Shown here piece by piece: positions 14,086-61,221 of a DNA stretch of 64,000 nt. The stretch comes from Methanococcus maripaludis C5 (GTDB lineage Archaea; AGJL01; Methanococci; Methanococcales; Methanococcaceae): positions 806,001 through 870,000 of the forward strand of contig NC_009135.1 of the NCBI RefSeq assembly GCF_000016125.1, written 5' to 3'. Positions within the stretch are counted from its first letter, which is position 1; every line of letters starts with the position of its first letter. The translations under genes and the position numbers were made by a program. The notes beneath the pieces were generated by a model, which did no database searches, was not told the origin of the DNA, and saw nothing but the letters and a program-made list of their open reading frames with translations.

Positions 14086-14242
14086 ATTTTTATTATTTTT
14101 TAAAATATTATTTAATTAAAAAAACTATTCTTGAATGCAATTTTTTAAAACATTTCTATTTATCCAATTATTCAAATAGTATCATTATATATCTAAAAGC
14201 ACCCAATTATGAAACAGTTTGAATAGAAACATGGTGAAATTT

Positions 14243-15172
14243 ATGAAAGATGTTACAATAGGGCTATTTGGTGACTTTGCAGATGCGGGGAAAAACATCG
14301 CAAAAAAAGGAACTTCAACAGATATTACACTTTACAATCACAAGAATGGTGACGATTCCGCAGTATTTGTCGAACCTACGAGATACCCTGAAAGAATCCA
14401 ACCATTAATCTACACCATAAATATGATGGATTATGCACTTGTTTTTATCGATGAAATAAAACCTGAAATCGGAGAAACACTATTAACCCTCGATTTATTT
14501 GGTGTCGAAAAAGGATTCATCGTAGTTGGGGAATACGTAGATGTTGAACAGTTAAAAGGAATTATTTCAAACACGTCAATGAAAAATTTCGAAATTTTGG
14601 AAAAAGACTACATCCAAATTCGAGAAAAAATGATTTCAATTCCAGAAGTTGAAAAAAGTAGCGAATTTATAAAAATACCAATAGACCACTTCTTTTCAGT
14701 AAAAAGTGTTGGAACAGTAATCCTTGGAAAAGTGGACAAAGGAAACGTTTCTGTACACGACAATTTAAGAATATACCCTACAAACAATAAAGCTATGGTA
14801 AAAAGTGTTCAAGTACACGATAGGGATGTAAAAGAAGCTAAAACCAATTCAAGAGTTGGTCTTTCATTGAAAGGAATCAGTGTTGAAGACTTAGATAGGG
14901 GAATGATTCTTTCAAACGGGGAATTAGAAGTTTCTGACGTCATTGAACTCGAAATGAAATGGAATCCATACATGAATAAAGAAGTTGCAGTTGGTGAAGG
15001 GTACCAGATTATTGTTGGACTTCAAACTGTAAGCTGTAAAATTGAAGAGAAAAACGGAAATAAATTAAAATTAAAGTTGTTAAAACCTGTTGCATTTGAA
15101 AAAGGCGATACATTTGTAATGCTGGATGGAAGTGCAAAAGTTAGAATCATTGGAATTTCAAAATACGAATAA
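14243..15172 (+). CDS. SelB-like translation-factor paralogue without GTPase motifs (aSelBL type)
   Basis: This 309-residue protein looks like the first half of an EF-Tu/SelB factor whose G domain has lost its nucleotide motifs. The P-loop position reads GDFADAGKNIA, without the normal GK(S/T). No DxxG is seen where VFIDEIKPEIGET aligns with the usual switch II-proximal strand, and NKxD is replaced by VGEYVD. The C-terminal part (from about residue 145) has the beta-barrel domain II pattern, including FFSVKSVGTVILGKV and a LKGIS.EDLDRGM segment. This matches the archaeal SelB-like family reported to lack canonical GTPase residues. ATG 14243 follows GGTGA by five bases, while upstream codons do not. 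Its function is not established. Confidence 0.75.
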   Translation: MKDVTIGLFGDFADAGKNIAKKGTSTDITLYNHKNGDDSAVFVEPTRYPERIQPLIYTINMMDYALVFIDEIKPEIGETLLTLDLFGVEKGFIVVGEYVDVEQLKGIISNTSMKNFEILEKDYIQIREKMISIPEVEKSSEFIKIPIDHFFSVKSVGTVILGKVDKGNVSVHDNLRIYPTNNKAMVKSVQVHDRDVKEAKTNSRVGLSLKGISVEDLDRGMILSNGELEVSDVIELEMKWNPYMNKEVAVGEGYQIIVGLQTVSCKIEEKNGNKLKLKLLKPVAFEKGDTFVMLDGSAKVRIIGISKYE

Positions 15173-17942: not shown

Positions 17943-18076
17943 TTATGTCCCCCCACATCTAACATTTATCTAAGTTAAAATTTATAAAAAGAACTATATA
18001 TGTTTTATTAAGTAATATACCCTTCAAAACACATTACTCGAACATAAATTCAATTTACAATGTGAAAAGGCAAGTT

Positions 18077-56726: not shown

Positions 56727-58634
56727 TTGTCAGCTGAAGATATATTAAACGAGATAAAGGCGGCGGTTATAAACAAAGCCCCAGGAAATGCGGTTATTAC
56801 TGACGTCGAATTTGAAGGTTCAGAAGTAGTTATCTATGCAAAAAACCCAGAACTTTTTTCAAACAATCTTATCAAAGAATTTGCAAGAGATTTTAGAAAA
56901 AGACTTGCAATTAGACCGGATCCATCTGTTTTAGTCGAACCTGATATCGCGAAAGATAAAATTTTAAAAATAGTTCCAGAAGATGCTGAAATTACAAACT
57001 GTATTTTCGATGCAAACACAGGTGAAGTAATTATCGAATCTAAAAAACCTGGACTTGTAATTGGAAAAGAAGGCTCAACTCTTGAAGATATTAAAAAAGC
57101 AATTCAATGGGCCCCAAAACCAGTTAGAACCCCCCCAATTCCATCAGATACCATTAAAGCGATTAGAGCTACAATGTATCGAGAAAGAGCGGATGTAAAA
57201 GATATTTTAAGAAGAATTGGAAGAAGAATCCACAGAGACGTAAGACTTAGAGATGATTCATGGATTAGAACTTCATTTTTGGGTGGAAGTAGGGAAGTTG
57301 GAAGAACCTGTCTTTACCACCAGACTCCTGAAAGCAGGATTTTAGTTGATTGCGGTATTAACATTGCTGTTGATGATGAAAAAGCATTCCCACATTTTGA
57401 TGCACCGGAATTTTCAATCGAAGAAATAGATGCAGTTGTAGTAACTCACGCACACCTTGACCACTGTGGATTTATTCCAGGATTATTCAGATACGGTTAC
57501 GATGGGCCAGTTTACTGTACAAAACCTACAAGAGATTTAATGACCCTTTTACAGAAAGATTATGTAGACATTACTGAAAAAGAAGGTAAAAATGTTCCAT
57601 ATTCGTCAAAAGATATTAAAAACTGTATCAAACATACAATACCTCTTGATTACGGAGTTACTACAGACATTGCACCTGCAATCAAATTGACACTCCACAA
57701 TGCAGGGCACATTTTGGGTTCAGCAATTGCACACTGCCACGTTGGTGAAGGATTATATAACGTTGCATACACAGGAGACATTAAATTTGAAGCATCAAGA
57801 TTGTTAGAACCTGCAGTATGCCAGTTCCCACGACTTGAAACTTTGATTATTGAATCTACTTACGGAGGATACGATGACGTACTTCCAGAAAGAGATGAAA
57901 CAGAAAAAGAATTCCTAAGAGTAATTGCTGAAACCATTGCAAGAAAAGGAAAAGTAATAATTCCAGTATTCGGTATCGGAAGAGCTCAAGAATTGATGCT
58001 TGTTTTAGAAGAAGGATACAATCAGGGAATGTTTAATGCTCCAGTATATTTAGATGGGATGATCTGGGAAGCAACTGCAATACACACCGCATATCCAGAA
58101 TATCTCTCTAAAAATATGAGAAATAGAATTTTCCACGAAGGAGACAACCCATTCCTTTCAGAAGTATTTAAAAAAGTTAAAAATACAAACGATAGAAGAA
58201 ACATTATCGACAGTGACGAACCAAGTATTATTTTAACAACTTCTGGTATGCTTAGCGGTGGACCGAGTGTTGAATACTTTAAAAATCTCGCAGATAACGA
58301 GAAAAACGCAATTGTATTTGTAGGTTACCAATCCGAAGGAACATTGGGTAGAAAAATCCAGAAAGGATTTAAAGAAATCCCATTGATGGGTAAAAACGGA
58401 AGAAGTAAAGCGGTTAAAGTAAACCTGTCAGTCCATACATTGGAAGGATTTTCGGGCCACAGTGACAGAAAACAGCTCATAAAATACCTTAGAAAATTAA
58501 AACCGATCCCTGACCGCATATTAACAGTTCACGGGGAAGTTTCAAAATGTATCGACCTTGCAAGTACTGCATACAAATTATTTAAGAAAGAAACAAAAGC
58601 TCCAATGAATCTCGATTCAATAAGATTGAGATAA
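56727..58634 (+). CDS. aCPSF1/FttA, archaeal transcription termination ribonuclease
   Basis: This 635-residue protein has N-terminal KH domains (about 1-145, with GLVIGKEGSTLEDIK), a metallo-beta-lactamase domain with HxHxDH in VTHAHLDHCGFIPG, and a beta-CASP domain. NAGHILGSAIAH, STYGG and the C-terminal FSGHSDRK and VHGE motifs supply the other metal ligands. In Methanococcus this ribonuclease cleaves at U-tracts to end transcription. The start is a TTG (56727) with GGAGGGAC upstream. Confidence 0.95.
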   Translation: MSAEDILNEIKAAVINKAPGNAVITDVEFEGSEVVIYAKNPELFSNNLIKEFARDFRKRLAIRPDPSVLVEPDIAKDKILKIVPEDAEITNCIFDANTGEVIIESKKPGLVIGKEGSTLEDIKKAIQWAPKPVRTPPIPSDTIKAIRATMYRERADVKDILRRIGRRIHRDVRLRDDSWIRTSFLGGSREVGRTCLYHQTPESRILVDCGINIAVDDEKAFPHFDAPEFSIEEIDAVVVTHAHLDHCGFIPGLFRYGYDGPVYCTKPTRDLMTLLQKDYVDITEKEGKNVPYSSKDIKNCIKHTIPLDYGVTTDIAPAIKLTLHNAGHILGSAIAHCHVGEGLYNVAYTGDIKFEASRLLEPAVCQFPRLETLIIESTYGGYDDVLPERDETEKEFLRVIAETIARKGKVIIPVFGIGRAQELMLVLEEGYNQGMFNAPVYLDGMIWEATAIHTAYPEYLSKNMRNRIFHEGDNPFLSEVFKKVKNTNDRRNIIDSDEPSIILTTSGMLSGGPSVEYFKNLADNEKNAIVFVGYQSEGTLGRKIQKGFKEIPLMGKNGRSKAVKVNLSVHTLEGFSGHSDRKQLIKYLRKLKPIPDRILTVHGEVSKCIDLASTAYKLFKKETKAPMNLDSIRLR

Positions 58635-58640
58635 TTACTA

Positions 58641-58652
58641 TTTATTTTTTTT
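58641..58652 (+). terminator. T-rich tract after aCPSF1
   Basis: TTTATTTTTTTT lies 7 bases past the aCPSF1 stop, one of the longest T-runs in the window and a likely terminator for the termination-factor gene itself. Confidence 0.5.
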
Positions 58653-58715
58653 AATTTCGAATCATTGATATACCCCTTTTTCCAAAAAATTATATGGGAA
58701 TAAAGGGGTGGTATA

Positions 58716-59582
58716 ATGAACTATTTTAAAATATTCGCTATTTTTTTAGTTTTGATTATTCCTGCATCTGCAAGCAATGTCGTACTTGTAAGTGACACGG
58801 TTTCAGACTGTGCGAGTGCAAATATTATTCCAACGATTAACGATTCATATATTGTTATAAATACATCGTGGGGAGTTTATGATGACGATGTGCTTGATCA
58901 GATCCTAAATGAATACCCTCAAAACGTGATTATTGTTGGTGGAACTGTAGCAGTTCCTTCGGAATATGATACACAATTAGAAGAAACAGGAATAAATGTC
59001 GAAAGAATATATGGTATTGATAGATATCAAACAAATAAAAACGTAATTTTAAAATTTAAAGATCAGATCCAAAATAGAAATATATGGATAGTTTATGGGG
59101 ATGATGATAGGCCAGAATTTTGTAATACTGGACGAAATATCGTAATTTTATCAAATGGTACTGCATTATCTTTTGATGATGAGGATTTAGAAGATTTTGA
59201 GCCAGGAAGAGTTACAATTATGGAAAATCCATTATTTAATTCAAACAATGTAATGGCGTGACTTCAAAATCAAGGATTTTACGTAAGTACGCAATCAATG
59301 CCTCAAAGCGTGTTGAATAGAACCGTTTACAGAAAAATGGAACAGATACAACTCCAAATTGAAACTATGGAGCAGCTTGGAATAAACTGTACTCCACTTC
59401 GGAATGATTTAACTTCGATAAATAATTCAATAAGATACCAAAACCTAGAACAGGCCTATGCTGGAGAAATAGTTCTTGAGAGAAATATCTTAAGTTACAA
59501 ACACCAAAACCGTCAGGCTTACTGGAATGGACCTAAACTCAAATATAATCCTAAAAATAATAGTCCTAACTATAACAATTAA
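58716..59582 (+). pseudogene. CWB2-like exported protein interrupted by in-frame TGA
   Basis: The reading frame continues across a TGA at 59259-59261 without a shift. The first part (181 residues) has a signal peptide (FAIFLVLIIPASA) and a cell-wall-binding repeat 2-like core: VVLVSDT, NVIIVGGTVAVPSEYD and INVERIYGIDRYQTN. After the TGA the frame resumes LQNQGFYVSTQSMPQSVLN and runs to 59582 with a helical C-terminal part. The neighbour at 59648 shows the same structure uninterrupted and has Arg (AGA) where the TGA falls. The simplest reading is a nonsense mutation of an Arg codon. Methanococcus does use TGA for selenocysteine, but no Cys occurs at this position in the paralogue and no SECIS-like stem is seen downstream. 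GGGGTGGT precedes the ATG. Confidence 0.75.
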
Positions 59583-59647
59583 ATAATTTAATATATAATA
59601 AACAATAATACTTTTTTATTGCCTTTAAAACTTTTAGAGGGATTATT

Positions 59648-60586
59648 ATGGACATTTTTAAGAAATTAGCACTATTAATGATCGTATTAATGCCAGTTTC
59701 ATTTGCAAGCGACGTTATATTGGTTAGCGACAATTTTGCAGATAAACTTGTAGCTCAAACTATTGCCGATGAACTCGATGGATTCGTACTTATTGAGTCA
59801 CCATGGGGAAATTTCAGCAATGATACATTAAATGAAATATTAAATCAAACTCCCAAAAATGTAGTAATAATTGGTGGGCTGGTAGCAGTTCCTGAAAATT
59901 ATACCGATGCACTAGAAAATGAAAATATTACTGTTGAAAGAATCAACGGTTCCGATAGATATGAAACAAACAACTTAACAATAAACCGGTTTAAAGACCT
60001 ATTTGTTAACAAAACAATTTTAATCGTTTATACTGAAGGCGAAAACGACACATATGGAAATATCACAAACGTAACCTTCGTATTAACCGATGGTGAAAAC
60101 ATATCAGTTAGTGAAGAAGATATGCAAAAAATGTCTGACAACATTACTGTTTTAGAAGATGCTGCATACAACTACAGCGGACTTTTAAAAAGACTTCAAA
60201 ACCATGGATTCCAAGTAAGTACTGCTTCGATGCCTGGAAATGTTTTAAAAGCAAAAATCGAAAGAAGAATGAATACTATTCAGACGACGCTTCAAGCGTT
60301 AGAACAGAATGGAATCAATATCTCAGAAATTGATACAAAATATGGTGCATTGAATGAAGCATACAATGGCGGAAATTACAATTATGCATACGCTCTTGCA
60401 ATCCAATTGGAAGACGATTTAAAAGCTAAACAGTACAAAACTACAGGCAATACAAAAATCGAAAAAACCGTTAAAGTGAAAACAAATAACGTTAAACCTT
60501 CGAATGATGATTCTGATGACGACGAAGAAGAAATAGAATATGAAAATGAAACTGAAGAAGATGATATCAACGAAACTTCAGAATAA
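59648..60586 (+). CDS. CWB2-like exported surface protein
   Basis: This 312-residue protein is a paralogue of the preceding interrupted gene. It has a signal peptide (LALLMIVLMPVSFA), then VILVSDNFADKLVAQTI, KNVVIIGGLVAVPENY and VERINGSDRYETN, which is the cell-wall-binding repeat 2 pattern, and a helical segment near residues 205-265. The C-terminal 40 residues are very acidic (Asp/Glu-rich), with no membrane anchor seen. Several N-x-S/T sequons suggest surface exposure and N-glycosylation. GAGGGATT precedes the ATG. Probable cell-envelope protein; exact role unknown. Confidence 0.72.
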   Translation: MDIFKKLALLMIVLMPVSFASDVILVSDNFADKLVAQTIADELDGFVLIESPWGNFSNDTLNEILNQTPKNVVIIGGLVAVPENYTDALENENITVERINGSDRYETNNLTINRFKDLFVNKTILIVYTEGENDTYGNITNVTFVLTDGENISVSEEDMQKMSDNITVLEDAAYNYSGLLKRLQNHGFQVSTASMPGNVLKAKIERRMNTIQTTLQALEQNGINISEIDTKYGALNEAYNGGNYNYAYALAIQLEDDLKAKQYKTTGNTKIEKTVKVKTNNVKPSNDDSDDDEEEIEYENETEEDDINETSE

Positions 60587-60669
60587 CGTTTGTGAAAAAT
60601 AATAATCAAATTTACTTTTTTCAGTTACTTTTTTTAAATCCGTTTCACAATATTATACACATTGGTGAA

Positions 60670-61221
60670 ATGATGAAAATGCAAATTTTAGTTCTAAGTT
60701 TATTATTCATTTCAATTTTAACGGTTTATGCATGGGACGACTGCCCATTTGGAGTTACGGATTCATCTTGTGAGTTTCCAGGGGCATGTGGAAGATACAT
60801 AGATACAAATAATAATCAGATATGTGACCATTCTGAACCGGCACCCGAAAATCTAAAAGAAACAGTTTCAAATTCTGAAAATATAAGCTATGATGAGCTA
60901 GTTGAAACTTATGTTTCAATGTCTGGAAAAGAATTAAAAACATATACTATTAAAGAAATTTGCGATTATTATGGCATATCTACTGAATCTTTGAAAAATA
61001 AACTTAATATTGATGTAGACGACAGCATTACAATTGATCAAGTCCGTTCAACCTATGGTTTCGCAGTTATAGACATAAAATACGCAATATATGACTGCAT
61101 GGTTGAAGAAGGCATCGTAAATACCACTACAGAATATACCATTTCAGAAGGAAACAAGTCATTTTCAGAGAAAATAATTGATTTTTTATTTACCTGGATT
61201 GATTTGAGAAGTTTTTGGTGA
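60670..61221 (+). CDS. Exported Cys-motif protein paired with a NapH-like ferredoxin
   Basis: This protein of about 184 residues has an N-terminal signal/anchor (ILVLSLLFISILTVYA). Next come a motif with CPFGVTDSSCEFPGACGRY and a D-x-N-x-N-x-x-CDHSEP stretch, which has calcium-loop-like acidic residues. The C-terminal half contains IKEICDYYGISTESLKNKL, a motif I associate with membrane ferredoxin-type proteins. ATG 60670 (or 60673) is preferred because GGTGA precedes it; the long frame from 60592 has none. Its stop is five bases from the next gene, so they form an operon and likely one electron-transfer unit. Confidence 0.65.
   Translation: MMKMQILVLSLLFISILTVYAWDDCPFGVTDSSCEFPGACGRYIDTNNNQICDHSEPAPENLKETVSNSENISYDELVETYVSMSGKELKTYTIKEICDYYGISTESLKNKLNIDVDDSITIDQVRSTYGFAVIDIKYAIYDCMVEEGIVNTTTEYTISEGNKSFSEKIIDFLFTWIDLRSFW

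Follow-up and report, generated by a model that had tools for sequence, protein, structure and literature searches.

In Methanococcus maripaludis C5, the leading gene of a tandem CWB2-like pair likely carries a recent nonsense mutation, a C-to-T change in a CGA codon, with truncation of its putatively exported product and tolerance of the loss. The gene lies in a 64,000-nucleotide stretch of DNA (the window), taken from a host genome that totals 1,789,046 bases over two contigs, with 1,780,761 in the larger one. The gene and its surroundings are laid out as follows:

58716..59582, + strand: interrupted gene, 867 nt, 289 codons, with an internal TGA at codon 182 and a terminal TAA
58716..59258, + strand: part 5' of the TGA, 181 aa, with a signal-like hydrophobic N-terminus (judged by eye) and a weak CWB2-like (PF04122) region
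59259..59261, + strand: in-frame TGA, codon 182 of 289; CGA (Arg) in the sister genomes G001 and G002, AGA in the paralogue
59262..59582, + strand: in-frame part 3' of the TGA, 106 codons and the TAA, holding the rest of the motif RLxNxGFxVST and then a predicted helical segment
59583..59647, + strand: intergenic stretch up to the paralogue, without a SECIS-like element
59648..60586, + strand: intact tandem paralogue, 312 aa, CWB2-like, with PF04122 above the cut-off

As the original prediction had it, the TGA sits inside an otherwise intact gene. It is the single internal stop in 289 codons, and the frame at 58716-59582 aligns without gaps with the orthologues in G001 and G002. The 106-codon remainder after the TGA is free of stops, and only 2 of 20,000 base shuffles of this stretch were equally open. 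The codon difference from the two orthologues, the open remainder and the absence of other lesions are all directly observed.

The state of codon 182 in relatives was followed through seven genomes of the genus (G000-G006), the host genome G000 included. Both tandem genes were present in G000, G001 and G002, and one family member each in G004-G006, while in G003 the match was no more than partial and fell on a larger open frame, of 677 aa; the family therefore seems dispensable in G003. The orthologues in G001 and G002, each full length at 867 nt, both carry CGA (Arg) at codon 182, so that a sense codon stands in the orthologues (2/2) and a stop only in C5, the pattern of a nonsense allele. 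In a nine-row alignment, Arg occupied the site in all eight other genus rows; the ninth row, the interrupted gene itself read with TGA as R, was excluded from this count. In L075, a distant protein from a Methanococci MAG (31% identity), the site is Gln by eye, and Arg is thus not universal there. Cys was absent from the site in the eight aligned genus members and in L075. Alignment with 59648-60586 also bore out the AGA that had been predicted at the paralogue's aligned codon. The original prediction had further proposed a single A-to-T or C-to-T change, of which the one-base change and the C-to-T alternative stand; since both orthologues have CGA, C-to-T is the simplest change and A-to-T is not. 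Judged from these alignments, the simplest account would be one C-to-T transition in the C5 lineage or, alternatively, an equivalent base-call error. Beyond the genus, a search of genome contigs with a single protein as query returned no relatives, and a profile search of the contigs confirmed 6 of 56 stretches, namely one Methanococci MAG and five distant bacterial CWB2-like proteins.

Selection on the remainder was assessed from changes unique to C5, counted only at codons where G001 and G002 agree, with codons differing between them excluded. There were 14 synonymous and 3 nonsynonymous changes before the TGA and 8 synonymous and 5 nonsynonymous after it, a difference that is not significant at these small counts (Fisher P 0.24). 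Neutrality of the remainder over the whole branch was rejected (5 or fewer nonsynonymous changes of 13, P 0.0015-0.011 depending on the assumed transition bias), and as a crude one-sided bound the untranslated time amounts to at most about 0.34-0.69 of the branch. Selection therefore acted on the remainder during much of the branch, and the stop is either young, or not really there, or read through. The original prediction had kept read-through, a fresh nonsense mutation and sequencing error as options, which proved apt, as the selection downstream fits a recent event or an error. No erosion is visible after the TGA, a point that counts against the nonsense reading; it fits a young mutation, but equally an error or a translated remainder.

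The interrupted gene matched Pfam CW_binding_2 (PF04122) with an E-value of 6.1e-5 and 23.9 bits, just under the cut-off of 24.9 bits, which the paralogue exceeded with 30.2 bits; the part after the TGA had no family match over a cut-off. All nine family rows, one of them the read-through row of the interrupted gene, matched PF04122 at E 0.01, and the family profile matched the clostridial CWB2 structures 5j6q, 9f8e, 5j72 and 7acy (E 5.8e-11 to 4.8e-8), with Cwp8, SlpA and Cwp6 among the proteins found. Among the matches listed, eight of ten chains were CWB2/S-layer proteins, and the remaining two were weak and unrelated. Together with the signal-like N-terminus, this family assignment points to a putative role at the cell surface. 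Open frames of 675-677 aa in G003, G000 and G002 (L007, L011 and L012, respectively) matched the paralogue in their N-terminal part (E 1.4e-9 to 1.8e-6) and appear to be larger surface proteins that share an origin with the CWB2-like paralogue. An AlphaFold model of the read-through form, built from a two-row alignment, was poor (mean pLDDT 49.1). It suggests that strands alternate with helices as far as about residue 191 and that helices follow at 197-264, with a block at residues 211-240 of pLDDT 81-87. On this model, truncation at 181 would cost the protein its helices and the last portion of the alpha/beta part.

We infer that the base is real, and propose that a recent C-to-T transition converted Arg CGA to TGA at codon 182. 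The ribosome would stop at the TGA and release a protein of 181 residues, without the conserved RLxNxGFxVST motif or the helical segment at the C-terminus. Such a truncated protein is probably unstable or inactive, and its loss is probably tolerated, with the adjoining intact paralogue covering its role.

A second nonsense codon in the same genome counts in favour of the nonsense reading at codon 182. The gene for the Cys-type formylmethanofuran dehydrogenase subunit B (fwdB; L045/L059), which lies outside the window at about 630120-631430 of G000:C1, is interrupted in frame by a TAA whose counterpart in G001 and G003 is AAA, again a single-base nonsense change. It also carries H118R, G129W and L135P at sites common to G001 and G003, near the Cys that aligns with the Sec of fwuB. 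Besides the stop, its unique changes comprise 41 synonymous and 7 nonsynonymous, with no clear decay. A Sec-type fwdB homologue with an in-frame TGA is present at about 1667 kb, and the Cys-type gene, too, may therefore be dispensable.

The main rival to a nonsense allele is a base-call or assembly error, with a real sense codon and an intact gene, which we consider unlikely though worth serious weight. It would account for the one-base difference, the lack of any other lesion and the constrained remainder. A survey of the window bears on it from both sides. Here, 73 non-overlapping G001 open reading frames (ORFs) of at least 60 aa, from a 73-kb syntenic region, were compared with the window, a match being at least 60% identity; the longest of overlapping ORFs was kept, and stops or two-frame matches, not coverage, were flagged. 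Matches were obtained for 44 of the 73, three with an in-frame stop and none in two frames. The two other flagged stops, at 17943 and 63352, lie near the N-terminal end of their ORF and are read as start extensions, which leaves the TGA at codon 182 as the only clear internal stop in the survey. In favour of an error, the 44 matched ORFs hold no other stop deep within a shared coding portion; against it, these ORFs (15,371 aa) show no frame change, and the assembly, in two contigs, is 99.85% complete. The C-to-T transition is, moreover, a common natural mutation. An earlier version of the survey, which flagged 12 of 52 matched G001 ORFs of at least 100 aa, was rejected, as it counted antisense frames that overlap others, together with ORFs that run off the end of the window.

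Read-through without Sec, whether at a low level or programmed, would yield some full-length protein, and we regard it as improbable. The remainder is open and largely conserved, and the nucleotide directly after the TGA is C, a context that is often leaky in other organisms. Residual UGA suppression does exist in M. maripaludis, but in the published work describing it (PMC9622424), UGA reporters without a SECIS in strain JJ gave less than 1% of wild-type activity. At this level a trace of read-through product is possible, which would hardly sustain function. A sense codon stands in both orthologues, and nothing therefore suggests an inherited read-through system; a review (PMC8211752) names Sec and Pyl insertion as the archaeal read-through that has been demonstrated. 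A more far-reaching version, in which UGA is read without a SECIS in the interrupted gene to give short and long forms of a surface protein, and which would explain the conserved remainder, appears more improbable still. If true, an archaeon that decodes Sec would also have functional UGA read-through that needs no SECIS, which, if shown, would bear on the understanding of archaeal translation termination.

Insertion of Sec at codon 182 appears very unlikely, with a chance that we place close to nil, as the relatives compared have Arg at the aligned position, apart from a distant one with Gln, and never Cys. The host genome is Sec-equipped, with matches over the cut-offs for SelB (selB) and tRNA-Sec, and has in-frame TGA codons in two fdhA genes, selD, vhuD (two TGA) and two fwdB-type genes. 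According to PMC11881835, a SECIS can act from the 3' UTR or, as for fdhA1, from the 5' UTR; both A of its GAA are indispensable and the first base is variable, the partner of the GAA is usually an opposite A, with an A-to-G variant partly functional in M. jannaschii, and the motif is usually flanked by G-C clamps. No SECIS had been evident in the original prediction, and our motif scan agrees: 58640-60700, which includes 59583-59647, gave no match, in strict form or with the opposite A and G-C clamp relaxed, at a sensitivity of three of six control loci. The closest strict match, at 58443, lies within the upstream gene and scores 13.5, compared with 18.5-21.5 for the three accepted controls. 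Over the whole window, the strict scan gave two matches on the + strand and three on the - strand, with a best score of 16.5, and a looser scan (opposite A or G, no clamp) gave four and five on the two strands.

The scan had been loosened twice, since its first strict version recovered no control SECIS, and the controls were six TGA-bearing loci of the same genome, picked after their loci had been seen. SECIS-like elements were found in three of them: before fdhA1, after vhuD (34 nt after the stop codon) and at selD, where the element lies at about the expected gene end. The element at 1397-1429 of L042 belongs to the first fdhA gene and falls within its 5' UTR, agreeing with the description of fdhA1 in PMC11881835. 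Three loci were counted as missed: the second fdhA (L043), where a strict match scoring 21.5 lies within the coding sequence; the second fwdB-type gene with a TGA (L044, scored in a later run than the other five), with matches of 18.0 and 16.5, one coding and one upstream; and fwuB (L046), without a match in the scan. The scan is therefore not exhaustive, and the score of the coding match in the second fdhA locus means that chance matches within genes can equal the controls and that a SECIS is not proven by score alone. Rfam gave no relevant match in the test region, a negative that is uninformative because it was equally blind to the four control selenoprotein loci L042, L043, L044 and L046.

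Separate production of the remainder by restart at the in-frame ATG at 59298 (94 aa), 36 nt after the TGA, was rejected as having virtually no likelihood, since by eye the 20 bases before it hold no G-rich ribosome-binding sequence, the product would lack a signal-like stretch, and this ATG is an ordinary internal Met codon in both intact orthologues.

Two other frames in the window were observed. At 14219-15172 (+ strand), a 317-aa frame matches positions 64-342 of the SelB model, although by eye the GTP-binding motifs usual at the N-terminus are missing; a TAA flagged in this frame is simply its normal stop codon, and the product is perhaps a degenerate elongation-factor-like protein. Immediately 3' of the paralogue, 60673-61221 (+ strand) encodes a 182-aa, Cys-containing, exported-looking protein that matches nothing in NCBIfam and no Pfam model above its cut-off.

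In a methanogen that decodes Sec, an in-frame TGA readily prompts annotation as a selenoprotein. The interrupted gene does resemble the Methanococcus selenoprotein genes fdhA, vhuD, selD and fwuB in having a TGA in frame with coding sequence on both sides. It differs in that the TGA of the fwdB-type selenoprotein genes aligns with Cys, whereas codon 182 aligns with Arg; the TGA positions of fdhA, vhuD and selD are presumably redox sites. A SECIS-like motif was found in three of the six selenoprotein loci, whereas none was found around 58716-59582. With the clostridial CWB2 proteins SlpA, Cwp6 and Cwp8, the C5 family shares the pattern GG.vavP and eRi.G.dRyeTN; the clostridial proteins have an array of three CWB2 modules, whereas the C5 family is archaeal and short, with a C-terminal helical segment. 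Comparison with the sister genomes indicates that the better annotation is a CWB2-like gene for an exported protein, present as a nonsense allele or affected by a base-call error, and the preferred reading is an ordinary nonsense allele, probably recent, in one of two tandem CWB2-like genes. Although it shows no decay yet, the interrupted C5 gene is otherwise like single-nonsense strain pseudogenes: a lone stop interrupts a frame that is intact apart from it, the sister genomes have unbroken orthologues, and a related partner gene is present.
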